Below are positions 1 through 27,179 of a stretch of 64,000 bases of DNA, piece after piece; within the stretch, counting starts at the first letter, position 1; each line of letters begins with the position of its first letter. Under the pieces are notes generated by a model, which was given only the letters and a program-made list of their open reading frames with translations, was not told the DNA's origin and did not search any database. A program made the position numbers and the translations under genes. The DNA comes from Achromobacter deleyi (GTDB lineage Bacteria; Pseudomonadota; Gammaproteobacteria; Burkholderiales; Burkholderiaceae_B): assembly GCF_016127315.1 (NCBI RefSeq), contig NZ_CP065997.1:1860001-1924000 (forward strand), in the 5' to 3' direction.

Positions 1-165
1 CAAACGTTGATGGCGCCCTATTCGGGCGAGGTCAAGTGCGGCTTTGAGCCAATGCTGCGGGCTTGGCTGGCACCGGCTGGTCAATCGACTGTCGTGGGTT
101 TGAACGATCTGGCGGCTCATCTCGAAGTCATTGAAAAAATCTTTGGTTATGACGCGGTTGCCTGA
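1..165 (+). CDS. C-terminal fragment of an unassigned protein, cut by the window edge
   Basis: Frame 1 is open from the first base and ends at TGA 163-165, giving the last 54 residues of a protein that begins outside the window. The end is mixed helical in character (AHLEVIEKIFGYDAVA), which would fit the last helix of a sugar-modifying enzyme such as a Gfo/Idh protein, but no motif decides this. Its stop lies 17 bases inside the next gene, so the two are probably translated together. Base composition matches the AT-richer sugar island that follows. Function not assigned. Confidence 0.6.
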   Translation, partial: QTLMAPYSGEVKCGFEPMLRAWLAPAGQSTVVGLNDLAAHLEVIEKIFGYDAVA

Positions 166-1255
166 AACGCTGGACGTCGCCGCGTTTCTTGCGCGGCCGC
201 TGGATCCCCTGGTCTTCTACGATATTTTGCCGTCGGATGGCTGGTCGGTTCAGGGGCTGCCCGAGAAGCCGGCCATCGGCGATTTGGTGGACAGGTTATT
301 GGCCGCTACGATCGACACGGTGGCGGAAGCCGATCTCGATCTGATCCGCGTGGCGCTGCTGGGTGGCCGCGCGGACCAAGAGCGTGACGAGCGGTTGACT
401 GCGCTGGCGGACCATGCGTCCAGGCTCTACTCGCGCTTGCTTGAAGGTGGGAAGAGCCGTAGACCGTTGCGCATGAAGTTGCAGCAATTGAACTTCTTCC
501 TGCGGGATTGGCTGGATCGCGACGTCGATGTGGTGCGTGACGTACAGGGAGAGAAGTTGCTCGGTGCGCCGGCGCCATGGGACTGGCTGGACCTGGAGGG
601 AGGGGGGCGGCTCCTGTTGATTTCGGGGCCAGACAATGTCCGGTGGCATTGGCAGGGAAAATCCGGCGGGCAATCTTGCGGATACCCGAGTCAGCTGGAT
701 CTGATCGCTCCGGGGCGCATTAGCATCGGTTCTATTTTTTCAAATGGCGCCGATGTATTTGATAACGGCACCATTGATCATGTGGAACATCATCGGCCTA
801 TTGTCCTGATGTTCTCCATGGCCGCGGAACTCTGGGCGGTGGATTACGACGGCCATGTCTTTCCGATCGGCGATCAAGCGGCAGGGGTCAAAGTGCCTAT
901 TCGGCAGGTGGATCGCGCGCGCCGTATCGGCGATCGGCTCTATCTGTCGGATTGGACCGCCCCGGGCGTCATCGTCGTGGTGGAGCTTGGCAGTCTTGCC
1001 AGCCGGGTTCAGGCTCTGCCGGGAATACTGCTATTGAATGACATCTGCGAGGGGCCCGAAGGCTTCTACGCGGTCTGCAAGCAGCAAGGCAATGTCTTTG
1101 CGTTTGATCACGCTTTCATGCCTCGTGGTGAGCGGCTTGGATTCGGGCGAGGCAAGGGGAGGCTGTTCGATCCCTTGACCGTGCGCTGCAGCGGTGACCA
1201 GCTTCAAGTGTTGAACTGGATCACCGGCAGTCTCATTCTGCTGAAAGCCTTCTAA
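149..1255 (+). CDS. Unassigned 368-aa protein, possibly with a beta-propeller-like C-terminal half
   Basis: I do not recognise this protein. The ATG at 149 is preferred over a TTG at 131 because it gives a shorter overlap with the preceding gene. There is no signal peptide or membrane helix. Residues 1-150 look helical and charged. Residues from about 150 on are rich in short beta stretches with repeated Trp, Gly and Asp (for example WAVDYDGHVFPIGD and RRIGDRLYLSDWTAPG), the texture of propeller blades. It lies tail to tail with the aminotransferase, 14 bases away, and shares the island's lower GC. A role linked to the surface sugar made next door is inferred from position only. Confidence 0.6.
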   Translation: MTRLPETLDVAAFLARPLDPLVFYDILPSDGWSVQGLPEKPAIGDLVDRLLAATIDTVAEADLDLIRVALLGGRADQERDERLTALADHASRLYSRLLEGGKSRRPLRMKLQQLNFFLRDWLDRDVDVVRDVQGEKLLGAPAPWDWLDLEGGGRLLLISGPDNVRWHWQGKSGGQSCGYPSQLDLIAPGRISIGSIFSNGADVFDNGTIDHVEHHRPIVLMFSMAAELWAVDYDGHVFPIGDQAAGVKVPIRQVDRARRIGDRLYLSDWTAPGVIVVVELGSLASRVQALPGILLLNDICEGPEGFYAVCKQQGNVFAFDHAFMPRGERLGFGRGKGRLFDPLTVRCSGDQLQVLNWITGSLILLKAF

Positions 1256-1269
1256 GCCTGAATAGGCGT

Positions 1270-2781
1270 TTATTTGCGCTTTTTCAGTACCGTTTCGATG
1301 CACGCAATGGTGCGCTCGAGTTGGCCTTCGCTCATGTTCGAACCGGAAGGCAGGCAGATGCCGTTGTGGAAGAGTCCGTCGGAAACGGATTCTTCACCGT
1401 GCTTGAAGTACTCGCAAGATGCAAAGACTGGCTGCAGATGCATCGGCTTCCAGACTGGACGCGCTTCGATGTGCTCGGCACCCAGCGCCTGGATCAAATC
1501 GGCGGGAGTGACCCCGATCTTCGGATCCAGCGTGAGCGCGCTCAACCAGTGAGTCGAGAAACTCCAATCGGGTTCCGGCATCATGTGCACGCCAGGCACG
1601 CGCTGGAAGCGGTCGAGGTACTGGGCGTAGACGTGTCGCCGGCTTTGTACCCGGTCCTCCAGCACCTTGAGCTGTCCTCGGCCGACGCCCGCCAGGATGT
1701 TGCTCATGCGGTAATTGAAGCCGATTTCGCTGTGCTGATAGTGCGGGGCCGGATCCCGGGCCTGAGTGGACAGGAAACGGGCCCGGTCGACGATCGCTTT
1801 GTCATTCGACACGAGCATGCCGCCACCCGACGTGGTGATGATCTTGTTGCCGTTGAACGAGTAGATGCCGATGGCGCCGAAAGTGCCGCTGGCGCGACCT
1901 TTGTAGCGTGCGCCGAGGGACTCGGCGGCGTCTTCAACCAGGGGTACTCCGTACTGGTCGCAAAGGGCAAGGATCGGGTCCATGTCGGCGCTCTGGCCGT
2001 ACAGGTTCACCACGATCACCGCCTTGGGCAGTTTTCCCTTGCGCTTGGCATCTTCAAACGCGCGCGCGAGCGCCTGCGGCGACATGTTCCAGCTTTCTGG
2101 CTCCGCATCGATGAAAACGGGTTGCGCTCCCTGGTAGACAATCGGGTTCGCGCTAGCCGAAAACGTCAGCGAAGAGCAGAACACGGTGTCACCCGTGGTG
2201 ACTCCCAATATGCGCAACGCCAAATGAATCGCAGCGGTGCCCGAGCTGAGCGCGGCAGCGTGACCGATGCCAACATAGGCTGCCAGTTCCTTTTCGAAAT
2301 TGTCGACGTTTGGCCCCAGCGGAGCAATCCAGTTGGTACGGAAAGCTTCTTCGACGTACTCTCGCTCCAGCTCTCCCAAGTGGGGTGACGAAAGGAAAAC
2401 TTGAGCGTCCAGGTCTGCTCTCGTTACTACCTTGATCGGCCTGCCTTGAGCATCCGTGACTGGAAGATGGTTGATGTCGTGCTGGTTCATCAGTTCCAGC
2501 GCGGTATGGCGGGTATACCCTTCCGTCAGAACGATGGGGGTCGTGCGATCCAGCGTATCCAGCGTTTTTTCCAGCGTTGCCCCATTGAGAATGAGACGGC
2601 GCAAGTCCCCGTCGGTCACCGTGCGTTCCAGCTGCCCGTTCGGCGAGACCAAGAGCAGCATGCCGTGCGCGTGGTTGGATTGGTTCAATCGCTCCAACGC
2701 TTCGCGCAGCGTGACACCCCGCGTAACGCAGAGCTCTGTGATCGGACTCTTTTTCTCGGTAGGTTTCATGTCTTGTCTCAT
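1270..2781 (-). CDS. CBS-pair domain fused to a DegT/DnrJ/EryC1/StrS sugar aminotransferase
   Basis: PLP-dependent sugar aminotransferase expected to put the 4-amino group on a UDP-4-keto-6-deoxy-GlcNAc-type sugar (LegC/PglE role). Residues about 12-125 form a CBS pair (TVTDGDLRRLIL; HDINHLPVTDAQGRPIKVVT). The aminotransferase fold starts near 130. Visible motifs are SSGTAAIHLAL, the PLP-binding Asp in VEDAAESLG (about 284) and the Schiff-base Lys in SFNGNKIITTSGGG (about 313). Ordinary family members are about 380-400 residues, so the 503-aa length is explained by the CBS fusion. It is the last gene of the minus-strand nonulosonate operon and starts directly at the SDR stop. A second ATG at 2769 is an equally possible start. 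The CBS part suggests nucleotide sensing, which is inference. Confidence 0.88.
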   Translation of the reverse strand: MRQDMKPTEKKSPITELCVTRGVTLREALERLNQSNHAHGMLLLVSPNGQLERTVTDGDLRRLILNGATLEKTLDTLDRTTPIVLTEGYTRHTALELMNQHDINHLPVTDAQGRPIKVVTRADLDAQVFLSSPHLGELEREYVEEAFRTNWIAPLGPNVDNFEKELAAYVGIGHAAALSSGTAAIHLALRILGVTTGDTVFCSSLTFSASANPIVYQGAQPVFIDAEPESWNMSPQALARAFEDAKRKGKLPKAVIVVNLYGQSADMDPILALCDQYGVPLVEDAAESLGARYKGRASGTFGAIGIYSFNGNKIITTSGGGMLVSNDKAIVDRARFLSTQARDPAPHYQHSEIGFNYRMSNILAGVGRGQLKVLEDRVQSRRHVYAQYLDRFQRVPGVHMMPEPDWSFSTHWLSALTLDPKIGVTPADLIQALGAEHIEARPVWKPMHLQPVFASCEYFKHGEESVSDGLFHNGICLPSGSNMSEGQLERTIACIETVLKKRK

Positions 2782-3576
2782 TTACCAAACGGTCAGGCCG
2801 CCATCAACGACGAGATTCTGGCCTGTAGTGTACGAGGATGCGTCCGAGGCCAAGTACAGATAGGCCCCCATGAGTTCATCAGGTTGCGCCATGCGGTTGA
2901 GCGGCACTCGCGCGGAGTAGCGGTCAACGAAGGTCGTGTTCTGTCCGCTGAATATACCTCCGGGAGTCACGGCATTGACGCGCACACCCTGAGCGCCCCA
3001 ATAAGACGACAGGTAGTGAGTCAGGCCCCAGAGGGCGGCCTTGCTGACGCTGTAGATGGCGGGAGTGTTGATGGCTCTTCCCAGATAGCTGGAGCCTTCG
3101 TATATGCGCTGATCGGGGGCGACGATTCCATAGATGGACAGGGTGTTGATGATGCTGCCTCGACCGGCCTGCGCCATCGGGGTCCCGAACACCTGGCAAC
3201 AATGCATGGCGCCGGTCACGTTGACGTCCATGACCATGTCCCAGTCGTCTCGGGGGAACGTTTCGAACGGCTCGAAGAAGTTCGGACTTTTGGTCGCAGC
3301 GTTGTTGATCAATACATCGATGGCGGGCATGTCGGCGCCGAGGCGTTCGCGGATCGCTTCCAGTGCGGGCTTGGACGTGATGTCGACGCATTCAGCGCGC
3401 AAGCGGGACGGCTCGCCGATATCCTGTTCCAGTGTGCGCAAGGCTGCTTCGGAATGGTCGAGCGCAATGACAGTCTGTGCGCCGGCATCCAGAAGGTGGC
3501 GGGTCAGTCGTGAGCCCAGGATGCCAGCAGCGCCTGTGAGCAGGATGGTTTTTCCGGTCAGGGTGAAGTCAGTCAT
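2782..3576 (-). CDS. Short-chain dehydrogenase/reductase of the nonulosonate cluster (PtmA-like)
   Basis: Classical SDR of 264 aa with the cofactor motif TGAAGILG (about 14-21), NNA (about 91), catalytic Ser in NTLSIYG (about 147) and YSVSK (Tyr 175, Lys 179). The ending VVDGGLTVW is typical of the family. It probably oxidises or reduces a sugar hydroxyl or keto group in the cytoplasm. Its 5' end overlaps the neuA stop by four bases, so it is cotranscribed with the CMP-sugar genes. SDRs of this kind (PtmA) sit in Campylobacter legionaminic acid loci, but the exact substrate cannot be read from sequence. Confidence 0.85.
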   Translation of the reverse strand: MTDFTLTGKTILLTGAAGILGSRLTRHLLDAGAQTVIALDHSEAALRTLEQDIGEPSRLRAECVDITSKPALEAIRERLGADMPAIDVLINNAATKSPNFFEPFETFPRDDWDMVMDVNVTGAMHCCQVFGTPMAQAGRGSIINTLSIYGIVAPDQRIYEGSSYLGRAINTPAIYSVSKAALWGLTHYLSSYWGAQGVRVNAVTPGGIFSGQNTTFVDRYSARVPLNRMAQPDELMGAYLYLASDASSYTTGQNLVVDGGLTVW

Positions 3577-4274
3577 TGTTTGCCTTGAGTCGTCTGCGCG
3601 GATGCCATGATCAGCTCGACAATGCGGAAGTCGATTTCGCTATCGATATCGATTGATCTTTCGCGCGGCATGACATGCAGCCGCGTGCGTCCGTTCCACA
3701 AGCCCTTTGTCAGGGAATGGTAATGCCACACATAGATCGATGCATTCATCGCATAGACCTTTGGAGCGTGTTGGCGACCCAGCACGGCCTGGTCGGGCAC
3801 TTTGACCAGACCGATATTGCCGTTCGGCTGACGCTCCACCATGTTGAAATATGGATTCTTTTCGGCCTCGTATCCCGTGATCACCACATCGGTATCGTCG
3901 TCCAGCAGGGCGATGCAGTCAACGATGTCCTGCGCATTGCGCAGCGGGGATGTGGCGTCGAGATCAACGACCCGTCCGACAGGGCCCGCGTTCGCGTTTA
4001 CCCAATCGGCCATGTGTTGAATCACCGGCAATTTACCGGCCTCGCTGGTAGCAAGATGGGCCGGACGCAGCAGCGGCACCAGCGCGCCCGCGTGGCGCGC
4101 AACGTCGGCGATCTCGTCGTCATCGGTCGAAACGTAGACTTCGTCGATCAGGTCGCAGGCAAGCGCTTGCTCAATCGTGTGAGTAATCAGCGGTTTGCCG
4201 TGCAGCAGTCGAATATTCTTGCGGGGCACGCCAACAGATCCCCCGCGTGCGCAGATAGTAGCAATGGTTTTCAT
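3573..4274 (-). CDS. neuA: CMP-nonulosonate cytidylyltransferase (NeuA/LegF/PtmB type)
   Basis: Activates a nine-carbon sialic-like acid with CTP to give the CMP sugar used by glycosyltransferases. The N-terminus carries the nucleotide-binding signature ICARGGSVGVPRKNI, here with Cys-Ala in place of the usual Pro-Ala and with SVGV where SKGI is common. LDATSPLRNAQDI follows near residue 100, and the C-terminus has the SIDIDSEIDF motif typical of these transferases. At 233 aa it is a single-domain enzyme without the C-terminal esterase seen in some NeuA proteins. The start overlaps the upstream oxidoreductase stop by four bases. Legionaminate rather than Neu5Ac as substrate is inferred from the neighbours. 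Confidence 0.9.
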   Translation of the reverse strand: MKTIATICARGGSVGVPRKNIRLLHGKPLITHTIEQALACDLIDEVYVSTDDDEIADVARHAGALVPLLRPAHLATSEAGKLPVIQHMADWVNANAGPVGRVVDLDATSPLRNAQDIVDCIALLDDDTDVVITGYEAEKNPYFNMVERQPNGNIGLVKVPDQAVLGRQHAPKVYAMNASIYVWHYHSLTKGLWNGRTRLHVMPRERSIDIDSEIDFRIVELIMASAQTTQGKQ

Positions 4275-5251
4275 GGATTTCGGCAGGCTTCTCGGGCTCG
4301 CAACAACAAGTCCAGGCTGGCGATGCCTTCGGTAAGTGGTTGACTGGTTTCTCGATTGGTATCCAGGGCACTGAGCAACTCGGCCATGGCTGAGGGGTAT
4401 GTGGCAGCCACGTCGAAGTCTGCCGGGTCATTGGTCAAAAGCAGTTGACGACCGCCCGCCTGGGTCAGATGGAGCGTCTTGCCGATCAGGTCACAGACCA
4501 GGGTGCCCGACTCCGTGACGACGAGATAGCGCCGCAAGGGCTGGCGCGAGATGTAGTCGACGCTGACGGTCGCCAGCGTTCCTTGCCGGGCTCGCATCGC
4601 GATGCAGGCCACGTCTTCCGTCTCGATCTCAAGCGAGCTCAACTTGCCCGAAAACGCCTTGACGCTATCGAATTCGCCCAGCAGCCAGCGAGCGGCATCC
4701 ACCTCGTGGATGAGATCCAGCATGACACCGCCCCCCAGCGCGTGCGAGGCGCTGTAGCTCTTGCGGTAGTCGCTCGCGGGTCTCCAGTCGGGCAGCCATT
4801 GGCCCGCCTGGAAGTCGCCGCGCACGATTGCTCCCATATCTGTCTCAAGCAGCCGCTGGCGCATCTGCGCTAGCGCTGGCAGGAATCGGAGATTGCAGCC
4901 CACCAGAGTCGGCGCCTTGCCGCGGTGTCTGTTTGCCGCCTCGATGAGCTGGGCGAGCTGCGCGCGATTCGTCACGACAGGCTTCTCGATGTACAGCGCG
5001 ATGCCGGCGTCAAGCAGCTTGGGCAGGACTTCGATATGCAGAGAGGAGGGGCTGGCGATGACGGCGAGGTCCGGCTGCTGGGCGAGGGCGTCGTCGACGT
5101 TGTCGCACACGATCGCGTCCAGGCTCGCGCTGAGCGCATCGTGGTAGACGCGGGACCGCAGCAGCACCCAACCGAGGTCCTGGCGCAGCGATTTCAGGCT
5201 GTTGATATGGCGCTGGCCGATCGACCCTGTTCCGATGATGAGTATCTTCAT
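4271..5251 (-). CDS. Gfo/Idh/MocA-family NAD(P)-dependent sugar oxidoreductase
   Basis: A 326-aa oxidoreductase. The start at 5251 (MKILIIGTGSIGQRH) is chosen because it opens directly into the Rossmann glycine motif and gives an ATGA overlap with the acetyltransferase stop; the longer open frame upstream is an Arg-rich shadow. The family EKP motif appears as LYIEKPVV (about 95-100), and DLIHEVDAARWLLG (about 170) holds the likely catalytic His. Such enzymes oxidise sugar hydroxyls, as WlbA does on UDP-GlcNAcA in Bordetella. The six-enzyme legionaminate pathway does not need this activity, so it may modify the sugar further or supply a precursor. The role is inference. Confidence 0.85.
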   Translation of the reverse strand: MKILIIGTGSIGQRHINSLKSLRQDLGWVLLRSRVYHDALSASLDAIVCDNVDDALAQQPDLAVIASPSSLHIEVLPKLLDAGIALYIEKPVVTNRAQLAQLIEAANRHRGKAPTLVGCNLRFLPALAQMRQRLLETDMGAIVRGDFQAGQWLPDWRPASDYRKSYSASHALGGGVMLDLIHEVDAARWLLGEFDSVKAFSGKLSSLEIETEDVACIAMRARQGTLATVSVDYISRQPLRRYLVVTESGTLVCDLIGKTLHLTQAGGRQLLLTNDPADFDVAATYPSAMAELLSALDTNRETSQPLTEGIASLDLLLRAREACRNP

Positions 5252-5880
5252 GTCGCCGCTGCCTTTCGCAGAACGGCGGGAACGCCCGCCCACAGGGAGT
5301 CCGGACCGACATCGTTGCGCAGGACTGCGCCCGCGCCGACGGTAGCGCGTGAATCGATCTTCAGCCCAGGCAGGATGTTTGCGCCCGCGCCAATCATGAC
5401 CTGTTCGCCGATCTGAACGCCACCGGCGAGCGAGGCTTGCGGAGCGATATGGGCATGTTGGCCCACGATGCAGTCGTGATCGATGATGGCGCCGTGATTG
5501 ACGATGACCCCGGATTCGATGCGGCTCGCGGGAGCCACGACGGCGCGCGCGGCGATGAATACGCCGTCGGCGATGCGGGCATGCGGGGAAATGCATGCCG
5601 TCGGATGTGCGATGGTCAGTGGTTTGCCGCCAGCGCGAACGAATCGCGCGAACAGTTTTGCCCGCGCGATATTTGAACCAATGGCGATATGGAAATACTG
5701 ATCACGGAACATCGAGTCATCCAGCGGCGCGCGAACGCCGACATGCAGCAATGTCGTGCCGTCCAGGGCGGGGTTGTCATCGATGACGACGGGTGAGTAG
5801 CCGCCCATGAGCAGCAGGGCATCCAAGACCACTTTGGCATGGCCGCCCGCGCCGACTATCAGGACCTGGCTAGTAGGCAT
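5248..5880 (-). CDS. NeuD/PglD-family sugar O/N-acetyltransferase
   Basis: Left-handed beta-helix acetyltransferase of 210 aa. The N-terminal Rossmann-like part binds the UDP-sugar (VLIVGAGGHAKVVLDAL) and is followed by hexapeptide repeats from about 85 to 200. The catalytic His-Asp pair is in NHGAIIDHDCIVG, matching the PglD active site. The likely reaction is acetyl-CoA-dependent N-acetylation of the 4-amino sugar made by the aminotransferase (LegH role). O-acetylation of the finished acid (NeuD role) cannot be excluded. It overlaps both neighbours: 4 bases with the oxidoreductase and 11 bases with the epimerase gene upstream. Confidence 0.88.
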   Translation of the reverse strand: MPTSQVLIVGAGGHAKVVLDALLLMGGYSPVVIDDNPALDGTTLLHVGVRAPLDDSMFRDQYFHIAIGSNIARAKLFARFVRAGGKPLTIAHPTACISPHARIADGVFIAARAVVAPASRIESGVIVNHGAIIDHDCIVGQHAHIAPQASLAGGVQIGEQVMIGAGANILPGLKIDSRATVGAGAVLRNDVGPDSLWAGVPAVLRKAAAT

Positions 5881-7003
5881 TGGATTTCATCAAGACCGAA
5901 TCGTCCAGAGGCATCGTCGTCAGCAGCGCTGCGATGCGTTCGCTGGCATGGCCGTCGCCATAGACGTTGGCCGAAGACATGTGGCCGGGGCTCTGTTGCA
6001 AATGCTTGAGCGCGGCCTCGATAGACGCTGCGTCGGTGTCGCAATCCAGGACATTCGGATTGCGCTCGCGCAGGTTCTGGCGTGACCCCACATTGATGAC
6101 GGGCGTGCCGAATGTGGCGGCCTCGATAATGCCGCTGCTGGAGTTGCCGATCATCAGGTCGGCCGCGGCCATCCAGGCGATGAACTCCGGGCGCCTCAGA
6201 TGCGTGAGCACGCGGACATCGGGCCTGTCCCTCAGAGACTCCAGAACCTGGGCCACCGCCGTGCTACCTGCATCGGAATTGGGTTTCAGCGCCAATAACT
6301 GGTAACCGTGGGCGAGGACGGCCCGCAGCAGCGTATCGACCTGCTCGGCGGCGCGGTCGGCTTCTTGCACGACGGGGTGAAACACCATCAGCGCCAGGGG
6401 CAAATCGGGGTCCAGGCCTTGCGATTGGCAAAGTTCCGCACGATTCGCGCGGGGCGTTTCGGCTAGTCCGTCCAGTCCGGGTGCGCCGGTGACGGTAATG
6501 TGTCGTGGTTGCTCGCCCATGCTGATCAGACGGTCGCGCGACTGCTGGGTGGCGACGCAATGCCAATGAGCAAGTTTGGAAATGGCGTGCCGCACGGGTT
6601 CGTCAATCGTGCCGGAACGCTCGCCGCCATGGATATGCACGATCGGGATGCCCAGGTGTGCGGCAGCGATGGCGCCGGCCAGCATTTCACCCCGGTCACC
6701 GAGCAGCAAGACGATGTCCGGCCGGGCTTGTTCGAGGACGTCGCTGAATTGCATGACCATGTACCCGATCGCGCGGGCCATCCCCGCGCCCGTGCCGGTA
6801 TTCATGGGGAGCATGACGCGGGCCAGGATGGGCAGGCCATCGTGCTCGATTTCCGCCACGGTATTGCCATACTCGGGAGAGAGGTGCATCCCCGTGACAA
6901 TGAGGCTCAACTGGCAGGCAGGATCAGCCTGGATCCTGTGCAATGTGGCCGCCATCAGGCCGTAGTCGGCCCGAGTGCCGGAGATATAGACGATGCGTCG
7001 CAT
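5870..7003 (-). CDS. neuC: Hydrolysing UDP-(di)acetamido-sugar 2-epimerase (NeuC/LegG type)
   Basis: Releases UDP while inverting C2, giving free ManNAc or, in this context, 2,4-diacetamido-2,4,6-trideoxymannose for NeuB. The protein is 377 aa, the family's usual length. The start YISGTRADYGLM and the block LLGDRGEMLAGAIAAAHLGIPIVHIHGGE (around 95-120) are characteristic. A GNSSSGIIEA stretch near 290 is the conserved UDP-binding loop. Seven bases separate it from neuB. Because the operon also has a 4,6-dehydratase and a 4-aminotransferase, the diamino sugar is a more likely substrate than UDP-GlcNAc. Confidence 0.92.
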   Translation of the reverse strand: MRRIVYISGTRADYGLMAATLHRIQADPACQLSLIVTGMHLSPEYGNTVAEIEHDGLPILARVMLPMNTGTGAGMARAIGYMVMQFSDVLEQARPDIVLLLGDRGEMLAGAIAAAHLGIPIVHIHGGERSGTIDEPVRHAISKLAHWHCVATQQSRDRLISMGEQPRHITVTGAPGLDGLAETPRANRAELCQSQGLDPDLPLALMVFHPVVQEADRAAEQVDTLLRAVLAHGYQLLALKPNSDAGSTAVAQVLESLRDRPDVRVLTHLRRPEFIAWMAAADLMIGNSSSGIIEAATFGTPVINVGSRQNLRERNPNVLDCDTDAASIEAALKHLQQSPGHMSSANVYGDGHASERIAALLTTMPLDDSVLMKSNAY

Positions 7004-7010
7004 GGTCGGG

Positions 7011-8042
7011 CTACTCGACGTCAGTCCAGGTCAAGGTGGTTCTGGAGGGGATATCGTGCGTGGCGGTCTTGCCGTACAGATTGGCCAATTCAGCGGGAGC
7101 GATACCCGTGCCTGGGCGCAGCAAGGTCAGGTTATGAGCGCCGAAGACCTCACCTTTCTTGATCGCGGCGGTGGACGTGACGCTGCGTCGTACCAAGTCT
7201 CGTACTGCCAGTTCCTTTTGCGCGGGCGTTTTCACGCCATCACCCTGGGCCTGTTCCACCAGCCGGATGCTCTGAACCATGGCGCGCAATTCGGCCGGCT
7301 CAAGCGACGCTTTGTGATCCGGGCCCTTCATGTCACGGCTGATCGTGAAGTGCTTCTCGATGACGGTCGCGCCCTGCGCGACCGCAGCGATCGAAATGGA
7401 GATACCGTCGGTATGGTCCGAATATCCGATGGGCAAATTCAGCGCCTGGCGCATGGTGGCCATCGCGCGCAAGTTAACGTCGACAGCTGCCGCTGGATAG
7501 TTGGACGTGCAGTGCAGGACCGTTACGTAGTCGGCCAGCTCGCCGGTATGGCCGAGCGCCTCGCGCGTGGCCCGCACCGCCGCAACCGCCGCTTCGACTT
7601 CTTGCAGGTTCGCCATCCCGGTGGACAGGATGAGCGGCACGCCGTAGGCCGCCAGCACCTTCAGGAATGGGATGTTGGTGATTTCGCCGGAAGGGACTTT
7701 GATGCGGCGCATGCCCAGGCCAATGAGGAAAGACGCGGCTTCTTCGTCGAAGGGCGTCGACATGAATTCGATGCCGCGGGCCGCGCAACGCTGGACCAGC
7801 GCTTCATACGATGCATCCGGCAATTCCAGCGCCTTCAGCATCTGGTGCTGATCGCCGTCTCCCGTTTGGGTGCGCTGGTATTCCGCCTTGGGCGCTCCTT
7901 CACGGACGAGCCGGTCGGCGCTAAAAGTTTGAAACTTGATGGCATCTGCCCCGGCGTCCGCGGCAATGTCTACTAGCTCTAGAGCAAGAGCGGTATCACC
8001 GTTGTGATTGACTCCGGCTTCGGCAATGATGAACGTGTTCAT
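7011..8042 (-). CDS. neuB: Nonulosonic acid synthase (NeuB/LegI type)
   Basis: Condenses phosphoenolpyruvate with an N-acyl-mannosamine-type hexose to form the nine-carbon acid. The start at 8042 is taken because MNTFIIAEAGVNHNGD is the canonical NeuB N-terminus and it overlaps the dehydratase stop as ATGA; the longer open frame adds non-homologous residues. The protein is 343 aa, with a TIM-barrel domain carrying KFQTF, PSGEI and YSDHT, and a C-terminal antifreeze-like SAF domain (VTSTAAIKKGEVFG, near 290). Substrate choice among Neu5Ac, legionaminate and pseudaminate cannot be settled from sequence alone; the neighbours favour legionaminate. Confidence 0.93.
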   Translation of the reverse strand: MNTFIIAEAGVNHNGDTALALELVDIAADAGADAIKFQTFSADRLVREGAPKAEYQRTQTGDGDQHQMLKALELPDASYEALVQRCAARGIEFMSTPFDEEAASFLIGLGMRRIKVPSGEITNIPFLKVLAAYGVPLILSTGMANLQEVEAAVAAVRATREALGHTGELADYVTVLHCTSNYPAAAVDVNLRAMATMRQALNLPIGYSDHTDGISISIAAVAQGATVIEKHFTISRDMKGPDHKASLEPAELRAMVQSIRLVEQAQGDGVKTPAQKELAVRDLVRRSVTSTAAIKKGEVFGAHNLTLLRPGTGIAPAELANLYGKTATHDIPSRTTLTWTDVE

Positions 8043-9961
8043 TGTGTGACGAGATGGTGATGGTTGGGGATGCGACCCATGTCGAGCTGGCACACGTATT
8101 CGGGCACCAGCTCCTTGAGGCAGGTCACCGCGTCGAAGAGGCGGTTTTCGCGCAATGCTGCGGCCAGGCGCTCAAGACCGGCCATGAGTTCGCCATACTC
8201 GAGTTCATGTTCATTGGCTCGCATGATGCGTTCATGGCCAGTCTTTTCGACGTTTTCGCCAATCAGGAGCTCTTCATAGAGCTTTTCGCCTGGACGTAAC
8301 CCGGTCACGCGTATTTCGATATCGCCCGCGGGATTGTCGGCGTCGCGGACTTCCAGGCCCGATAGTTGAATCATGCGGCGCGCCAGATCGACGATCTTGA
8401 CCGGTTCGCCCATGTCGAGCACGAATACCTCGCCGCCCTTGCCCATCGCGCCAGCCTGCATCACCAGTTGGGCGGCCTCGGGGATGGTCATGAAGTACCG
8501 GATGATGTCCGGGTGGGTGATGGTGACGGGGCCGCCCGCTTGGATTTGATTGCGAAACAGGGGGACTACGCTGCCGGAGCTGCCAAGCACATTGCCAAAC
8601 CGCACCATGCACAGTTGGGTCCAGCTCTGCGCACGCGAGTGCGCTTGAAGGATGAGCTCTGCAAGGCGCTTGGTGGTCCCCATGATGTTGGTCGGACGCA
8701 CGGCCTTGTCGGTCGAAACAAGCACGAAATGCTCGACACGAGCTTCAATTGCGGCCTGCACCATATTCAGGGTGCCAAACGCGTTATTCAGGATGCCCTC
8801 TGAAATATTGTGTTCGACGATGGGGACATGCTTATATGCCGCGGCGTGATACACGGTTTGCACGCCGTACCTGCGGATCTGCTCAAGGCAGTATTCCCGA
8901 TGGCGTACGTTCCCGAGGATGGGGATGATCTCGACGGTGCAATCGCGGTGATGAATGCGCAGGTATTGCTCCGTGGTGTAAAGCGCGGCTTCGGACACCT
9001 CCAGCATGACCAGTCTGGTGGGTCCTTGCGCCAGGATCTGGCTACAGAGCTCGGATCCGATGGAGCCGCCAGCGCCTGTCACCATGACGGATTTGCCCGT
9101 CACGCACTTGCTGATCAGATCGGGAATGGGCGGGACAGGGTCGCGGCCGAGCAAGTCCTCGATCCGGATGGTGCGCAGCTTTCGATGGTCGATCTCGCTA
9201 TCGATGAGCTCGGCCAAAGGCGGGAGACTGCGGATCTGCAAGTGATACGACGCAAGATCCAGAGCAATTTCACGCAGCCGGCTACGGGCGGCGCTAGGCA
9301 TCGCGATGAAGAGCTGTTCGATCTGGTACCGATCGATCAATGCCGGGATGCTCGAAGGCGCGTAGGTGCGCAGGCCGGCGATCCACAGCTTCTGCTTGGC
9401 GCGTTCATCGTCCACCAATGCCACCGGTCGGTAGTGCGGTGTTGCGCGCAATGCGTTGGCCAACTGTTGTCCCGCCTTGCCCGCGCCATAGATGATGACG
9501 GGGATTCGGCGGGTCTCTGGAAACAGGGTCCCCCCGAACGCAGTGCGTAGCAAGACTCGCGACAGTGCGAGCATCGTGATTGCCAGCAGGACGTAAAGAA
9601 CCAAAAAGCCGCGCGAGAGCACGGCAGGTAGAATTCTCAAGAACAGGTCGATCGTGCCGATCGCCATGATCGATAGCACAATGCCGCCTGTGATCGACAG
9701 GAGCGTGCGCCCGTTGAACGATCTCAGGGTGAAATGGTAGGCTCCCAGAAGATACATGCCACACAGCGCGCTGAGTACGGCGATGACGGAGTAGAGGCCG
9801 TATTCCCTGGAGAAGTACAGGAAGTCGAAGCGTAGCCAAAGGGCAGCGTAAAACGACACGAACAACAGTGCAGCGTCAACAACAATAGTCGCAATACGCT
9901 TGTATGCTCGCGGCAAGTTCAACAGGCGCGCAGAAAGTGAAGCTAGCAATGTGATCGGCAT
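8039..9961 (-). CDS. Membrane-bound UDP-GlcNAc 4,6-dehydratase (WbpM/PglF/WlbL/CapD family)
   Basis: A 640-aa inner-membrane protein with four or five hydrophobic segments in the first 150 residues, a CoA-binding-like Rossmann domain (IYGAGKAGQQLANAL, near 165) and the SDR-type catalytic domain from about 295 (TGAGGSIGSELCSQI). The family hallmark STDKAVRPTNIMG is followed by MGTTK, with Met replacing the usual SDR Tyr, as in WbpM and PglF. It makes UDP-2-acetamido-4-keto-2,6-dideoxy-hexose, the entry step for diacetamido sugars and legionaminate. It is first in the minus-strand operon and lies next to waaC, where Bordetella carries wlbL. Confidence 0.92.
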   Translation of the reverse strand: MPITLLASLSARLLNLPRAYKRIATIVVDAALLFVSFYAALWLRFDFLYFSREYGLYSVIAVLSALCGMYLLGAYHFTLRSFNGRTLLSITGGIVLSIMAIGTIDLFLRILPAVLSRGFLVLYVLLAITMLALSRVLLRTAFGGTLFPETRRIPVIIYGAGKAGQQLANALRATPHYRPVALVDDERAKQKLWIAGLRTYAPSSIPALIDRYQIEQLFIAMPSAARSRLREIALDLASYHLQIRSLPPLAELIDSEIDHRKLRTIRIEDLLGRDPVPPIPDLISKCVTGKSVMVTGAGGSIGSELCSQILAQGPTRLVMLEVSEAALYTTEQYLRIHHRDCTVEIIPILGNVRHREYCLEQIRRYGVQTVYHAAAYKHVPIVEHNISEGILNNAFGTLNMVQAAIEARVEHFVLVSTDKAVRPTNIMGTTKRLAELILQAHSRAQSWTQLCMVRFGNVLGSSGSVVPLFRNQIQAGGPVTITHPDIIRYFMTIPEAAQLVMQAGAMGKGGEVFVLDMGEPVKIVDLARRMIQLSGLEVRDADNPAGDIEIRVTGLRPGEKLYEELLIGENVEKTGHERIMRANEHELEYGELMAGLERLAAALRENRLFDAVTCLKELVPEYVCQLDMGRIPNHHHLVTQ

Positions 9962-9978: not shown

Positions 9979-11010
9979 ATGAAACATCCCCGTATCCTTA
10001 TCGTTCGCACGTCATCCCTTGGGGATCTGGTTCACATGCTGCCCGCCATATCCGACATCGTTCGGCATGTGCCGGAGGCGCGGATTAGCTGGATAGTCGA
10101 GGAGGCATTCGCGGAGATTCCTAGCTGGCATCCAGGCGTTCACGAAGTAATAAAAGTTGCTCATCGCCGTTGGCGGAAATCCTGGTGGTCCTCGGAAGTC
10201 CGGGCTGAGCGGAAGGCGCTGGCACAACGCTTGCGTGCTGAAGAATTCGATATCATTTTGGACATGCAGGCACTGTTGAAGTCGGCATGGCTAGTCCGCC
10301 AGACGCGAGGTGTCAAGCATGGTCTGGATTGGCGGTCTGCGCGGGAGCCATTGGCGAGCCTATTCTATAACGTCCGCCATCGAGTCGAGTTCTGGCAACC
10401 GGCAGTCGTTCGCCAGCGGAAGTTGGCAGCGTTGACATTTGGCTACACCTATTCTGGCCACCCGGATTTCGGTCTACAGGAATTTTGTCGACAATCCATC
10501 AGTCCGCCCGCCGAGGACGTGTCCCGAGAAGGCCATGGACAGGAAGTGTCGCGGGTGCTGCACTTGGATACCAGCCAGGATTACGCGGTGATCATGCCTT
10601 CGGCGAGCCGTGACGACAAACTCTGGCCCGAAGATGACTGGCGCGCAGTGTTCCGCCGCTTGCGCGATGCGGGCTGTGCGCTGAAATTGCTGGCCGGCAA
10701 TGACAGGGAGGCGGAACGAGCCAAGCTGCTGGTGGCGGGCATGGAAGACGTCGAGGTGATGCCGCGCATGGACCTGACGTCGGTGGCGCGGCTGCTGGCC
10801 GGTTCGCGCCTGATGGTCGGGCTGGACAGCGGCCTGACCCATCTGTCGGCGGCGCTGGGCCGTCCCACCATCGGCATCTACCGTGCATCCACACCGGTGC
10901 GCACGCCCCTGGTCGGCTCGAATTACACGGCCAGTCTCGGCGATCGCGGCGCGTCGCCCTCGCGCGAGGCGGTCATGGCGTCGGTGGAGCAGGCGCTGGC
11001 CGCGCGCTGA
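9979..11010 (+). CDS. waaC: LPS heptosyltransferase I
   Basis: GT9-family transferase that adds the first L-glycero-D-manno-heptose to Kdo-lipid A at the inner face of the inner membrane. The protein is 343 aa. The N-terminus ILIVRTSSLGDLVHMLPAISD is the family signature, and the C-terminal domain holds the ADP-heptose site (GLDSGLTHLSAALGRPTIGIYR, near 280-300). The stop overlaps the waaA start by one base. Its first half is AT-richer, like the island to its left, while its second half has the GC-rich composition of the backbone, suggesting a mosaic gene. Confidence 0.94.
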   Translation: MKHPRILIVRTSSLGDLVHMLPAISDIVRHVPEARISWIVEEAFAEIPSWHPGVHEVIKVAHRRWRKSWWSSEVRAERKALAQRLRAEEFDIILDMQALLKSAWLVRQTRGVKHGLDWRSAREPLASLFYNVRHRVEFWQPAVVRQRKLAALTFGYTYSGHPDFGLQEFCRQSISPPAEDVSREGHGQEVSRVLHLDTSQDYAVIMPSASRDDKLWPEDDWRAVFRRLRDAGCALKLLAGNDREAERAKLLVAGMEDVEVMPRMDLTSVARLLAGSRLMVGLDSGLTHLSAALGRPTIGIYRASTPVRTPLVGSNYTASLGDRGASPSREAVMASVEQALAAR

Positions 11011-12338
11011 TGAACCGCGCCGTCTATACCCTGGGGTTGCGGGCGCTGGCCCCCCTGGTCTGGCTATGGATGGCCCGCCGCGCCAAGCGCGCCGGCGGTG
11101 AATGGCAGATCTTCTCTCCGGAGCGGTTTGGTCGGGCCGCGTCAGGTCGGGCCGCGTCAGGCCGGGCCGCGCCAGGCCAGGCTGAATCCAGCGATGCGAC
11201 CGCCGCCGGTCCCGCGCAAGCGCCGGTCTGGGTCCATGCCGTCAGCCTGGGCGAGACGCGCGCCGCGCAACCGCTGCTGCAGGCCCTGCTGGATCGCGGC
11301 TTGCCGGTGCTGCTGACCCACATCACCGCCACCGGCCGGGCCGAGGGCGCGCGGCTGTTCGCGGACGCCATCGCCCGCGGCCAATTGCGCCAGGCCTGGC
11401 TGCCCTACGATTTTCCCGGCGCCACGCGGCGCTTCCTGGCTGCCGCCGCGCCGCGTTGCGGCATCCTGATCGAGCGCGAGATCTGGCCCAACCTGCTGGC
11501 CGCGGCGCGGCGCGCCAAGCTGCCGATGGCGCTGGTGAGCGCGCGGTTCTCCGAATCGTCGCTGCGGCAGGCCGGCCGCATGGGCGGGGTCATGCGCGAG
11601 GCGCTGGCGGGGCTGGACTTGGTGCTGGCGCAGACGGCGCCGGACGCCGAGCGGCTGGCCCGGGCCGGCGCGCCGCGCCCCACGGTGTCCGGCAACCTGA
11701 AGTTCGATCTGTCCCTGCCCGCGGCCCAGGTCGAGGCGGGACAGGCCTGGCGCGTCCGCCTGGGCCGCCCGGTGATCGCCCTGGCAAGCACGCGCGAAGG
11801 TGAGGATGCGCCGTTCATCGAGGCCATCAAGCGCCATGCCGCCATGCCCGGCGCACCGCTGTTCCTGTTGATTCCACGCCACCCGCAGCGGTTCGACGAG
11901 GCCGCCGCGCTGCTGGCGCAGGCTGGCCTGGCCCACGTGCGGCGGTCGTCGGGACAGGCGCCCGGTCCGGAGACGACGGTGCTGCTGGGCGATACGCTGG
12001 GCGAAATGGCTTTCTATTACGCCGCCGCGGACGTGGCGGTGGTGGCGGGCAGTTTTGCCCCGCTGGGCGGCCAGAACCTGATCGAGGCTTGCGCCGCGGG
12101 CGTGCCGGTGATCGTCGGGCCGCACACGTTCAATTTCCAGCAGGCGGCCAGCGATGCCATCGAGGCCGGCGCCGCGCAGCGCCAGCCGGACCCGGAGCAG
12201 GCCGTGCAGGCCGCGCTGGCCCTGGTGGCCGACCCTGCCGCCAGGCAGGCGGCAGGGGACGCGGCGCGCGCCTGGTTCGCCAGCCATGCCGGCGCCACGG
12301 TGCGGACGATGGACGCGCTGGCGCCCTGGTTGCGCTGA
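11010..12338 (+). CDS. waaA: 3-deoxy-D-manno-octulosonic acid (Kdo) transferase
   Basis: Membrane-associated GT30 enzyme that attaches Kdo to the lipid IVA precursor. The protein is 442 aa, slightly longer than the usual 420-430. It starts with a hydrophobic anchor (LGLRALAPLVWLWMA), then VHAVSLGETRAAQPLL near 70, IEREIWPNLLAAA near 155, and the C-terminal donor site with SFAPLGGQNLIEACAAGVPV near 350. The extra length comes from a small Ala/Gly/Ser repeat near residues 41-60, encoded by three 15-base units. It is coupled to waaC by a one-base overlap. Confidence 0.94.
   Translation: MNRAVYTLGLRALAPLVWLWMARRAKRAGGEWQIFSPERFGRAASGRAASGRAAPGQAESSDATAAGPAQAPVWVHAVSLGETRAAQPLLQALLDRGLPVLLTHITATGRAEGARLFADAIARGQLRQAWLPYDFPGATRRFLAAAAPRCGILIEREIWPNLLAAARRAKLPMALVSARFSESSLRQAGRMGGVMREALAGLDLVLAQTAPDAERLARAGAPRPTVSGNLKFDLSLPAAQVEAGQAWRVRLGRPVIALASTREGEDAPFIEAIKRHAAMPGAPLFLLIPRHPQRFDEAAALLAQAGLAHVRRSSGQAPGPETTVLLGDTLGEMAFYYAAADVAVVAGSFAPLGGQNLIEACAAGVPVIVGPHTFNFQQAASDAIEAGAAQRQPDPEQAVQAALALVADPAARQAAGDAARAWFASHAGATVRTMDALAPWLR
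11131..11175 (+). repeat. Three in-frame 15-bp tandem units inside waaA
   Basis: Two identical units (11131-11145, 11146-11160) and one diverged unit (11161-11175) of the form GTCGGGCCGCGTCAG encode repeats of about Gly-Arg-Ala-Ala-Ser. As the unit is five codons, copy-number change would lengthen the linker but not break the frame. Confidence 0.85.
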
Positions 12339-23653: not shown

Positions 23654-24658
23654 ATGTCCACGCTTGCCGAGTCGTCTGTACCCTCGAACGAAGCCGCCGC
23701 CGCGCCCGCGGAAACGGCGTACGATCCGACGCAGAAACAGAAATCCCAGGCCAAGACGGCGCGCATCCCGATCAAGATCATTCCCGCCGAGCGCCTGAAG
23801 AAGCCGGAATGGATCCGCGTCAAGGCGGCCCAGCCGGGCTCGCGCTTCTACGACATCAAGCGCATCCTGCGCGAGCACAACCTGCACACGGTGTGCGAGG
23901 AAGCCTCCTGCCCGAACATCGGCGAGTGCTTCGGCAAGGGCACGGCCACGTTCATGATCATGGGCGACAAGTGCACCCGCCGCTGCCCGTTCTGTGATGT
24001 GGGCCATGGCCGCCCCGACCCGCTCGATACCAAGGAACCGGAAAACCTCGCGCGCACCATCGCCGCGATGAAGCTGTCGTACGTAGTGATCACCTCGGTC
24101 GACCGCGACGACCTGCGCGACGGCGGCGCCGGCCACTTCGTCGACTGCATCACCCACATCCGCGAACTGTCGCCCAGCACCCGCATCGAGGTGCTGGTGC
24201 CCGACTTCCGCGGCCGCCTGGACCGCGCGCTGACCATCCTGAACGCCGGTCCTCCGGACGTGATGAACCACAATCTGGAAACCGTGCCGCGCCTGTACAA
24301 GCAGGCCCGTCCGGGTTCGGACTACATGCACTCGCTCAAGCTGCTGGCCGAGTTCAAGAAGCTGCATCCCGACGTGCCGACCAAGTCGGGCCTGATGCTC
24401 GGCCTGGGCGAGACCGACGAGGAAATCCTGCAGGTGATGCGCGACATGCGCGAGCACAACGTCGACATGCTCACCATCGGCCAGTACCTGCAGCCGTCGG
24501 AACACCACCTGCCGGTGCTGCGCTACGTGCATCCCGACACCTTCGCCATGTTCGAGCGCGAGGCCTATGCGATGGGCTTCTCGCACGCCGCGGTCGGCGC
24601 GATGGTGCGTTCGTCGTACCACGCCGACGAGCAGGCCCATGCGGCGGGCGTGAACTGA
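23654..24658 (+). CDS. lipA: Lipoyl synthase
   Basis: Radical-SAM enzyme that inserts two sulfurs into protein-bound octanoate. The protein is 334 aa. The auxiliary cluster ligands are in [13 protein letters not shown] (near 80) and the radical-SAM cluster in [13 protein letters not shown] (near 110). The conserved C-terminal RSSYHADEQ motif is present, with the Arg-Ser-Ser needed for the auxiliary cluster. It converges on rmlC with the two stop codons directly adjacent. Confidence 0.96.
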
Positions 24659-25201
24659 TCAGCCCGACTGGGCATCGTTGAGCCAGACGCCGCTGCGGTC
24701 CTTCGCGGATAGCAGCGGCGCATGGTTGCCTGGCCAGTTGATCGCTAAATCAGGGTCATCCCAGCGGATGCAGCGTTCGAGCCGGGGCGCGTAATAGTCG
24801 GTGGTCTTGTACAGAACCTCTGCATATTCCGACAGCGTCAAAAAGCCATGGGCATACCCTTCGGGTATCCACATCTGGCGCATGTTCTGCGCGTTGAGCA
24901 CCGCGCCGACCCATTGTCCGAACGTGGGGGACGAACGCCGCACATCCACCGCTACGTCGAATATCTCTCCCACGCAGACGCGCACAAGCTTGCCCTGCGG
25001 CTGGTCGACCTGATAGTGCAAGCCGCGCAGCACGCCTTGGGCCGAGCGCGAGTGATTGTCTTGCACGAAGTGGCGCTGCAGGCCGGTCGTGGCCGCGAAC
25101 GTGTCCTGGTTGAAGCTCTCAAAGAAAAAGCCGCGTTCGTCCGTGAAGACGCGAGGCTCCAGAATCAGTACGTCGGGCAGCGCTTGCGGTATGACTTTCA
25201 T
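24659..25201 (-). CDS. rmlC: dTDP-4-dehydrorhamnose 3,5-epimerase
   Basis: Third step of dTDP-L-rhamnose synthesis. The start at 25201 ([19 protein letters not shown]) gives 180 aa, the usual length, and overlaps the rmlA stop by one base. FTDERGFFFESFNQ near 19-32, LRGLHYQ near 60 (catalytic His), and the catalytic Tyr region GYAHGFLTLSEYAEVLYKTT near 115-135 are all present. Base composition is lower in GC than the flanking lipA. Confidence 0.94.
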   Translation of the reverse strand: MKVIPQALPDVLILEPRVFTDERGFFFESFNQDTFAATTGLQRHFVQDNHSRSAQGVLRGLHYQVDQPQGKLVRVCVGEIFDVAVDVRRSSPTFGQWVGAVLNAQNMRQMWIPEGYAHGFLTLSEYAEVLYKTTDYYAPRLERCIRWDDPDLAINWPGNHAPLLSAKDRSGVWLNDAQSG

Positions 25202-26079
25202 CAGAACACCTTGTCCGCCAGGATACGCATCAGATATTGGCCGTAACCGCTTCTGGAGAGGGGGGCCGCCAGTCGTTCCAACGCCTCGGCGGTGATCCAT
25301 TGTTGCCGAAAGGCGATCTCTTCAGGACACGCTACCTTCAGGCCTTGACGGTGTTCGAGCGTGGCGATGAATTGGCCGGCCTCCAGCAGTGACTCATGGG
25401 TGCCCGTATCGAGCCAGGCAAAACCACGGCCCATGATCTCCACTGATAGCCTGCCTTGTTCCAGGTAACGCTGGTTGATGTCGGTGATCTCCAGTTCACC
25501 GCGTGCCGAGGGGCGAATGTCGCGGGCGATGTCGATCACATCGTTATCGTAGAAGTACAGGCCGGTCACCGCGTAATTGGAGCGGGGGCGGACGGGTTTT
25601 TCTTCAATGGACAGGACGTTGCCGCCCGAGCTGAATTCGGCGACGCCATAGCGCTGCGGATCTTGCACATGGTAGGCGAAGACCGTGGCGCCGGCTGTGC
25701 GTTTATTTGCGCGTTGCAGCAGCCGGGGCAGTTCATGGCCGTAGAAAATGTTGTCGCCCAACACCAGTGCGGATGCGCTGTGGCCAATGAAGGGCGCCCC
25801 GATCAGAAAGGCCTGCGCCAGCCCGTCTGGTGAGGGCTGGACGGCATATTCCAGGTTGAGGCCCCATTGTGAGCCATCCCCTAGCAACTGCAGAAAACGC
25901 GGGGTGTCCTGGGGCGTGGAGATGATCAGGATGTCGCGTATCCCCGCCAACATCAGTGTCGTCAGCGGGTAGTAGATCATTGGCTTGTCAAAGACAGGCA
26001 GCAACTGCTTGCTGATCGCCAGTGTGGCGGGATGCAGCCGGGCGCCGGAGCCGCCGGCCAGGACTATGCCTTTGCGCAT
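25201..26079 (-). CDS. rmlA: Glucose-1-phosphate thymidylyltransferase
   Basis: Makes dTDP-glucose, the first step of the rhamnose pathway. The start at 26079 ([17 protein letters not shown]) gives 292 aa. Its motifs [41 protein letters not shown] near 110 and [16 protein letters not shown] near 225 are those of RmlA. It overlaps both neighbours by one base. The longer frame upstream is not homologous. Confidence 0.95.
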
Positions 26080-27128: not shown

Positions 27129-27179
27129 TTGTGTCAAACCTCCAGGACCCGATGGCGCCTGGCGTATCCCGGTCGCGAT

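Follow-up and report, generated by a model that had tools for sequence, protein, structure and literature searches.

The nonulosonate operon treated here, eight minus-strand genes at 1270..9961 of a 64,000-nucleotide stretch of the Achromobacter deleyi genome (the window; contig positions 1860001-1924000 of a 6,987,272-bp single-contig genome), shares parts with several described systems. The 8-epilegionaminic acid (8eLeg) cluster of Escherichia coli O108, a serotype reported with this sugar in a title in the reference list of PMC3628348, has NeuC-, NeuB- and NeuD-type genes and a trio of PtmF-type oxidoreductase, LegF cytidylyltransferase and short-chain dehydrogenase/reductase (SDR) in the same order as the window, but it follows the GDP-linked route with LegB, PtmE and a free LegC, whereas the window has a WbpM-type dehydratase, an aminotransferase fused to a CBS pair, and no PtmE. 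The cluster of E. coli O161, whose O-antigen holds legionaminic acid (Leg) according to PMC10609480, has a LegB, LegC, NeuB, NeuC, PtmE and LegF set for a Leg-type sugar, as is proposed for the window, but it also takes the GDP route, carries a FemAB-like gene, gives no PtmF or SDR match, and has a LegF on the other side of the tree described below. The sps genes of Bacillus subtilis serve a UDP-linked legionaminate pathway that resembles the window in its UDP-linked precursors and its T-x9-M/Y-x3-K dehydratase, as described in PMC7439481, but it belongs to the spore crust of a Gram-positive, and the likeness is one of pathway description. Plasmid pSC52_3 (CP049031) of Rhodobacteraceae bacterium SC52 shares the NeuB-NeuC-NeuD-CBS-aminotransferase block of the window (NeuB, NeuC and the aminotransferase at 54-59% identity, the acetyltransferase at 39%), but no PtmF or LegF was recognised in the 19 kb read, and a PtmA-type SDR lies at its far end. 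Finally, the Bordetella wlb locus for 2,3-diacetamido-mannuronic acid occupies the same waaC-adjacent site in Bordetella genomosp. 7 and in some genus mates, and in most of these loci has a related membrane dehydratase, but it encodes a different pathway, with wlbA adjoining waaC in the loci read.

Set beside these systems, the A. deleyi locus is a familiar kind of nonulosonate operon in an unusual hybrid form, and its reading frames are intact. We propose, with confidence a little above even, that it makes CMP-activated 8eLeg, a 5,7-diamino-type acid, through the UDP-linked route, rather than plain legionaminate; we infer the identity of the sugar, the inversion at C8, a feedback sensor and a surface location, as follows. 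After the dehydratase, the CBS-aminotransferase would install the 4-amino group, LegH would acetylate it, LegG would free the sugar from its nucleotide and 2-epimerise it, LegI would condense it with phosphoenolpyruvate to legionaminic acid, and LegF would yield the CMP sugar. The PtmF-like and PtmA-like oxidoreductases would oxidise C8 and re-reduce it with inversion, before or after CMP activation, while the CBS pair would sense the end product, the CMP-nonulosonate, and throttle the first step unique to the pathway. Judging by gene content, the product would enter a Wzy-dependent surface polysaccharide encoded by the remainder of an island of about 26 kb.

Family scans and PDB comparisons assign six of the eight genes to the UDP-linked route, as retaining 4,6-dehydratase, 4-aminotransferase, N-acetyltransferase, hydrolysing 2-epimerase, synthase and CMP-transferase, all within one operon. 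The complete UDP-linked legionaminate-type set claimed in an earlier note on this DNA is thereby borne out, six genes covering the six activities; that note had named these activities for eight genes, and the two that it left unexplained encode a Gfo/Idh/MocA oxidoreductase and an SDR. The best PDB match of the dehydratase is WlaL (5bju, E 2.1e-87), which we take to be PglF, and its triad reads T-x9-M-x3-K from residue 417, with Met in the triad, so that it is classed as a probable retaining UDP-GlcNAc 4,6-dehydratase of the PglF/SpsM type; a T-x9-M/Y-x3-K triad is given for the dehydratase of the UDP-linked route in PMC7439481. The aminotransferase scores 379.8 bits against the LegC model TIGR04181, under its cut-off of 420, and the PDB matches of the N-acetyltransferase are perosamine and bacillosamine acetyltransferases. 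The GDP-linked (Campylobacter-type) route was ruled out, as the genome of the strain lacks both a full-length whole PtmE (CBS plus nucleotidyltransferase) and a close LegB (model score 44 bits against a cut-off of 475; no match at E 1e-120). The NeuB-family match in the operon is the only one across the genome. The UDP-linked gene set is thus present, and UDP-linked intermediates and a legionaminic-type product are what it would predict.

The case for inversion at C8 starts from the PtmF-like and PtmA-like genes, which flank LegF on either side in the window. Of the legionaminic-type acid expected by the earlier note, the type stands, and plain legionaminic acid, which would leave these two genes jobless, fits less well than 8eLeg. 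C8 epimerisation by the pair is suggested because the trio is present in O108 (8eLeg) and absent from the O161 loci viewed (Leg), and because the pair has homologues in Vibrio fischeri, whose O-antigen holds 8-epi-Leg according to PMC7940393 and whose PtmA and PtmF homologues are listed in Table 5 of PMC4481668. A precedent is described in PMC12053666, in which EpaA and EpaB, a cytidylyltransferase-reductase and an adh_short_C2 SDR, convert pseudaminic acid to its 8-epimer in vivo. Sixteen E. coli genomes were found, 9 of one LegC type and 7 of the O161 type, and we viewed five loci of the former and two of the latter: PtmF-LegF-SDR occurs in all five, with the SDR split in one, and the two O161-type loci give neither a PtmF nor an SDR match. 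Three of the five trio loci carry O108-named wzx/wzy, and the other two (L250, L252; L and G numbers are our labels for loci and genomes) do not and differ downstream. Strain ECZP248 (L250:19051-19814) has an O108-like legionaminate-type set with its SDR in two open reading frames (ORFs), and the sugar of this natural mutant would be informative. A blastn search of the window neuC-neuB against E. coli found nothing, and blastn of one LegB gave no match.

The phylogeny of LegF follows the trio, with two exceptions. With 100/100 support, the tree splits into a side with 11 trio rows and 2 non-trio rows (L204, L236) and a side with 13 non-trio rows and 1 unclear row (L232), three long-branch non-trio rows (L228_355, L241, L247) being omitted; in a first tree of all 30 rows, with L232 counted as trio, 11 of the 12 trio rows fell in the clade, along with 2 others. 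The LegF of the window groups with that of O108, apart from that of O161 (100/100), and a tree in which O161 joins the window, its sister and L203, a grouping picked after the first tree, was rejected by the approximately unbiased test (p 0.0002). The window thus holds a PtmF-type oxidoreductase and an SDR beside an O108-type LegF, a combination that may, judging by E. coli O108 and O161 and V. fischeri and not as an established rule, define an 8eLeg module.

The trio separates from the GDP route in both directions, that is, it occurs with and without it. PtmF-like and PtmA-like genes stand with LegF in the window, L203 and L190, whose genomes have no whole PtmE, and in the plasmid stretches read of L226 and L228, where PtmE is absent (in L226 with another gene in between); they stand with LegF and also PtmE in Rhizobium, A. 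thermophilum, a Sphingomonadaceae plasmid and E. coli O108. Since the window has the pair without PtmE, a role in GDP-sugar supply is argued against here. With a PtmF profile built from eight of the positive loci, including the window and O108, only L231 gave a strong match among 15 gammaproteobacterial LegB loci (L231-L243, L246, L247; 17.7-20 kb each, some truncated at an edge). A PtmF search of 369 genomes of the class at E 1e-45, an over-strict threshold, returned the window's own gene alone.

Several observations weigh against 8eLeg, and some of them speak for the strongest alternative, namely plain CMP-legionaminic acid made by the UDP route, with the oxidoreductase and the SDR serving precursor supply or another substituent, or dispensable. 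All six route activities are present for it, and Campylobacter carries ptmA and ptmF although the sugar reported for it is ordinary legionaminic acid. Both Campylobacter homologues appear in Table 5 of PMC4481668, in which Merino et al., working on Plesiomonas, put PtmA in precursor supply, and ten proteins of Plesiomonas, whose set has ptmA and ptmF, are said in PMC4875605 to match E. coli O161 legionaminate synthesis, a statement that is hard to reconcile with the O161 loci read here, which are shorter, and that slightly lowers our confidence in 8eLeg. The LegF proteins of L204 and L236 fall in the trio clade, yet the stretches examined give no PtmF or PtmA match, and a PtmA-like gene stands without a strong PtmF match in the GDP-route loci L241 and L243 and in L244 and L245 of Achromobacter. 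In addition, the oxidoreductase and the SDR of the window have only 31% (E 1e-46) and 28% (E 1e-28) identity to their O108 homologues, and their function may therefore differ. Nevertheless, plain Leg leaves two intact genes of the operon unexplained, the O161 loci viewed lack the pair and the O108 loci viewed have it, and the LegF tree tracks the trio with two exceptions; we consider plain Leg rather unlikely.

A second alternative is another altered nonulosonate, in which the pair would act on C4 or C7 or make a keto sugar, and the AsnB, the HpcH/HpaI aldolase and the acyltransferase encoded in the left flank would add unusual substituents. According to PMC5595891, the SDRs AciB and AciE are linked to other legionaminate epimers in Acinetobacter, and AsnB, HpcH/HpaI aldolase and MurJ-like genes also accompany a CBS-aminotransferase on a Roseovarius plasmid. 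However, the nearest documented product of the trio is 8eLeg, in E. coli O108, and no substrate evidence points to C4 or C7, so that we give this alternative a small chance. N-acetylneuraminic acid (Neu5Ac) or pseudaminic acid is very improbable and was rejected, as the Neu5Ac pathway, with which the NeuB, NeuC and NeuD models are shared, needs neither a dehydratase nor a 4-aminotransferase, and as the pseudaminic models stay below their cut-offs (PseB 168.2 against 407.75, PseC 257.1 against 423.5, PseI 267 against 340.25 and PseF, a weak CMP-transferase match, 114.3 against 205.7 bits) and the dehydratase has the Met triad and is nearest to PglF/WlaL.

The CBS-aminotransferase marks a rare and distinct UDP-route module in scattered proteobacteria. 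Its full-length relatives (46-67% identity) occur in 4 of 397 other genomes of the phylum and 6 of 398 other genomes of the order, G261 being in both sets, and the next-best aminotransferase matches (46-53%) have no CBS part; in the plasmid set, the nearest relatives without CBS are those of Priestia and Enterococcus (55-58%), and the GDP-route LegC stands at 35%. The relatives sit in a synthase-epimerase-acetyltransferase-CBS-aminotransferase block, in which the acetyltransferase of L190 went undetected, and usually have the large dehydratase within the same 20 kb. Whole PtmE was found in none of 10 other genomes with the CBS fusion, A. ruhlandii included. A clade of 12 (Shimodaira-Hasegawa-like approximate likelihood ratio test, SH-aLRT, 96) unites the synthase of the window with those from such clusters, and a thirteenth, from a Roseovarius plasmid, lies outside it. 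A far aminotransferase (G181:C1:516111-517376, 33%), whose alignment extends into the CBS part, is possibly a second, independent CBS-aminotransferase lineage.

The motif R-T-x-x-D-G-D-x-R-R is invariant in an alignment of 13 CBS-aminotransferases, and DGDxRR occurs in 17 of 18 PtmE proteins from GDP loci. In a PDB profile search, the CBS pair of an arabinose-5-phosphate (A5P) isomerase, 4o9k, matched over both repeats with the motif aligned (E 9.4e-13); 3k2v and 3fna ranked lower, and 2yzq, over separate repeats (1.2e-14), and 2ef7, with no motif (2.2e-12), matched about equally well, which weighs against a firm choice of ligand. The CBS pair, DGDxRR included, thus shows sequence kinship with the A5P isomerase type. 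Because 4o9k matches with the motif and was reportedly solved with CMP-Kdo (3-deoxy-D-manno-octulosonic acid), we propose that the pair may sense a CMP-sugar acid. An AlphaFold model of the whole fusion (mean predicted local distance difference test score, pLDDT, 83.3), folded from an alignment from which two plasmid rows were dropped, predicts a fold for each of the two domains and shows no more than this. A full-text search found no literature joining a CBS domain with legionaminic acid.

A broader scheme, which we put forward tentatively and with clearly less than even confidence, is that nonulosonate operons could consist of two exchangeable parts, a legionaminate core of the UDP or GDP route and a route-independent, C8-inverting PtmF-LegF-PtmA cassette, with a CBS pair that senses CMP-nonulosonate on the first pathway-only enzyme, PtmE in the GDP route and the aminotransferase in that by UDP. 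On this view the window would be a hybrid with the sensor on the aminotransferase.

The features of the locus are collected in Table 1. The eight ORFs that fill 1270..9961, internal stops absent, follow in transcription order as membrane dehydratase, synthase, 2-epimerase, acetyltransferase, Gfo/Idh/MocA oxidoreductase, CMP-transferase, SDR and CBS-aminotransferase. They had been described as eight overlapping genes; eight there are, and overlap (4 or 11 bp) holds for five of the seven adjacent pairs, one pair abutting and one having a 7-nt gap. All eight proteins have matches at 96-99% amino-acid identity in another species, A. ruhlandii LMG 1866, with full-length ORFs seen for seven genes and the acetyltransferase masked by an overlapping ORF; the SDR is 66% identical to its L203 counterpart. 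The 374-residue gene at 131..1255 is the last of a plus-strand run that starts left of the window and converges on the operon, and its product had no match in Pfam and NCBIfam scans at E 0.001. The waaC gene was matched in 42 of 43 genus genomes, its own genome counted, and its best named match is that of A. ruhlandii LMG 1866 (98%).

Table 1. Features of the nonulosonate operon, its flanks and the left part of the island (window positions)
Feature	Position	Strand	Basis and remarks
WbpM/PglF/WlbL-type membrane UDP-GlcNAc 4,6-dehydratase, 640 aa	8039..9961	-	PF02719 (Polysacc_synt_2) 407 bits
NeuB/LegI-type nonulosonate synthase, 343 aa	7011..8042	-	TIGR03569 447.7 bits (cut-off 399.65); likely start 8042, longest ORF extends to 8093
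NeuC/LegG-type hydrolysing 2-epimerase, 377 aa	5870..7003	-	TIGR03568 413.4 bits (cut-off 235.9); PDB 4zht, 5xvs
LegH/PglD/NeuD-type sugar N-acetyltransferase, 210 aa	5248..5880	-	TIGR03570 200.9 bits (cut-off 160.8)
PtmF-like Gfo/Idh/MocA oxidoreductase, 326 aa	4271..5251	-	PF01408; EKP motif at residue 89; likely start 5251, longest ORF extends to 5596
LegF/NeuA-type CMP-nonulosonate cytidylyltransferase, 233 aa	3573..4274	-	PF02348
PtmA-like SDR oxidoreductase (adh_short_C2), 264 aa	2782..3576	-	PF13561 160 bits; YxxxK at residue 175
CBS pair fused to PglE/LegC-family 4-aminotransferase, 503 aa	1270..2781	-	CBS 48 bits; DegT 333 bits
CBS pair of the fusion, about residues 17-130	2392..2733	-	R-T-x-x-D-G-D-x-R-R at residues 53-62
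374-aa protein, family not recognised	131..1255	+	Start more likely ATG at 149; 96% in A. ruhlandii
waaC, heptosyltransferase I, right island border	9979..11010	+	TIGR02193 400.5 bits
Wzy_C-domain protein; asparagine-synthase-like protein (AsnB); MurJ-like flippase; HpcH/HpaI aldolase-like protein	left of window		
Fatty-acid-hydroxylase-family protein; acyltransferase; 464-aa protein; Epimerase_2-like protein	left of window		464-aa protein without Pfam match
Second Wzy_C protein, 960 aa; Gfo-like protein and one neighbour	left of window		Gfo-like protein 27% to an annotated one

The operon had been taken as an island of about 9 kb at 1270..9961. The island is about 26 kb long, with further polysaccharide genes left of the window, and lies in a hypervariable locus beside waaC: between L002:3950 (genome 1843950) and window 9961 the GC content is 0.590, against 0.672 and 0.682 in the flanks. 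AsnB-like, HpcH/HpaI aldolase and MurJ-like flippase genes occur with a CBS-aminotransferase and NeuB both here (L002:5924-10199) and on the Roseovarius pelagicus plasmid (L228:848-9341), the two having 50% identity for the AsnB-like protein, 44% for the aldolase and 31% for the flippase, which suggests a larger polysaccharide cassette with an unexplained aldolase. For flagellin as the target of the sugar, a search with PF01973 gave no match in the genome, a weak test, as all four responding controls were archaeal.

For comparison, the loci of 40 of 42 genus mates were fetched, G027 (no match) and G031 (fragment) being left out. The small gene of the left border was reached in 16 of the 40 loci, together with the MFS gene in 14 of these (79-93% identity), and in 10 of the 16 it lies only about 3.2 kb from waaC. 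The content between these borders varies widely, and the island is common to A. ruhlandii only. At DNA level, identity to A. ruhlandii reaches 95-97% in that part of the island which lies in the window, is mostly 92-95% left of the window, and drops to 81-87% around the MFS gene; in waaA (window 11001-12000) it is 84%, against 94-97% for waaC and the island, and right of waaA the window is nearer to A. insuavis. Recombination at the borders would produce such a pattern, although the island itself has diverged about as far as the background; waaA is a likely recombination junction. A variable patch of about 2.6 kb right of waaA (window 24652-27244) has no alignment in A. ruhlandii and A. dolens.

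Other nonulosonate genes occupy the same locus in relatives. GDP-route clusters (LegB, LegC, PtmE) lie beyond wlbABC in the genus mates G034 and G036, and their LegB is 79-80% identical to a Rhizobium plasmid protein. In both (L244, L245), a distant NeuB-like stretch (29%) comes right after PtmE, followed by a weak Gfo match and a PtmA-like gene. A third nonulosonate locus type at waaC, with a distant NeuB-like gene (35-39%) and possibly for pseudaminic acid, is seen in A. insuavis (G011, L065:12362-18572).

The earlier note had further proposed a cassette exchange at a fixed lipopolysaccharide locus, from wlb to the present genes, with the dehydratase kept as hinge. The exchangeable waaC site and the wlb genes in relatives hold, as wlbABC adjoins waaC in 8 of the 40 genus-mate loci and in Bordetella genomosp. 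7; wlb is only one of several contents, and 2 of the 8 loci also hold the GDP-route legionaminate cluster. In Bordetella genomosp. 7, the gene adjacent to waaC matches PDB 3q2k (E 6.9e-220), presumably B. pertussis WlbA. In the window, wlbABC is absent beside waaC, and no wlbA homologue was found in the genome of the strain at E 1e-20. The large dehydratase occurs in 6 of the 8 wlb-type loci and in Bordetella genomosp. 7, at 4.0-9.5 kb from waaC, and among 17 loci from named Bordetella (in the range L086 to L117; the L114 stretch is shorter than 10 kb) two, L100 and L115, have a dehydratase match within 10 kb upstream of waaC. A metagenome-assembled genome (L134) labelled B. parapertussis, with a waaC at only 66%, was excluded from this count; apart from it, classical bordetellae are absent from the 80 loci compared.

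The hinge as stated was ruled out, as the neighbour of waaC in the wlb-type loci read is wlbA and not the dehydratase, and the dehydratase was not simply retained, because its identity to relatives at the waaC locus is 53-57%, against 79-85% for waaC. Even so, the closest relatives of the window dehydratase in the tree are dehydratases from this locus within the same family: with its sister and eight Achromobacter and Bordetella waaC-locus dehydratases it forms a clade of 10 (SH-aLRT 100; two fragments of less than 300 aa omitted), joined next by L202, from a CBS-aminotransferase cluster, with others of that kind further off. The dehydratase may thus have been recruited locally.

In conclusion, among the matches listed by a literature search, none was by its title on legionaminic or nonulosonic acid in Achromobacter. 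At one surface-polysaccharide locus this genus carries two routes, distinct in their biochemistry, to one kind of sugar, and the fusion appears to move a feedback sensor onto a different enzyme. Leg and its C8 epimer do not differ in mass, and either can be assigned on the strength of gene lists alone; a signature able to tell the two apart would correct annotations and offer PtmA and PtmF a job open to testing; the two-part scheme, if true, would supply such a sequence rule for Leg and 8eLeg producers and a function for PtmA and PtmF. For the opportunist Achromobacter itself, a sialic-like acid on the surface would bear on serotyping, phage receptors and host recognition.

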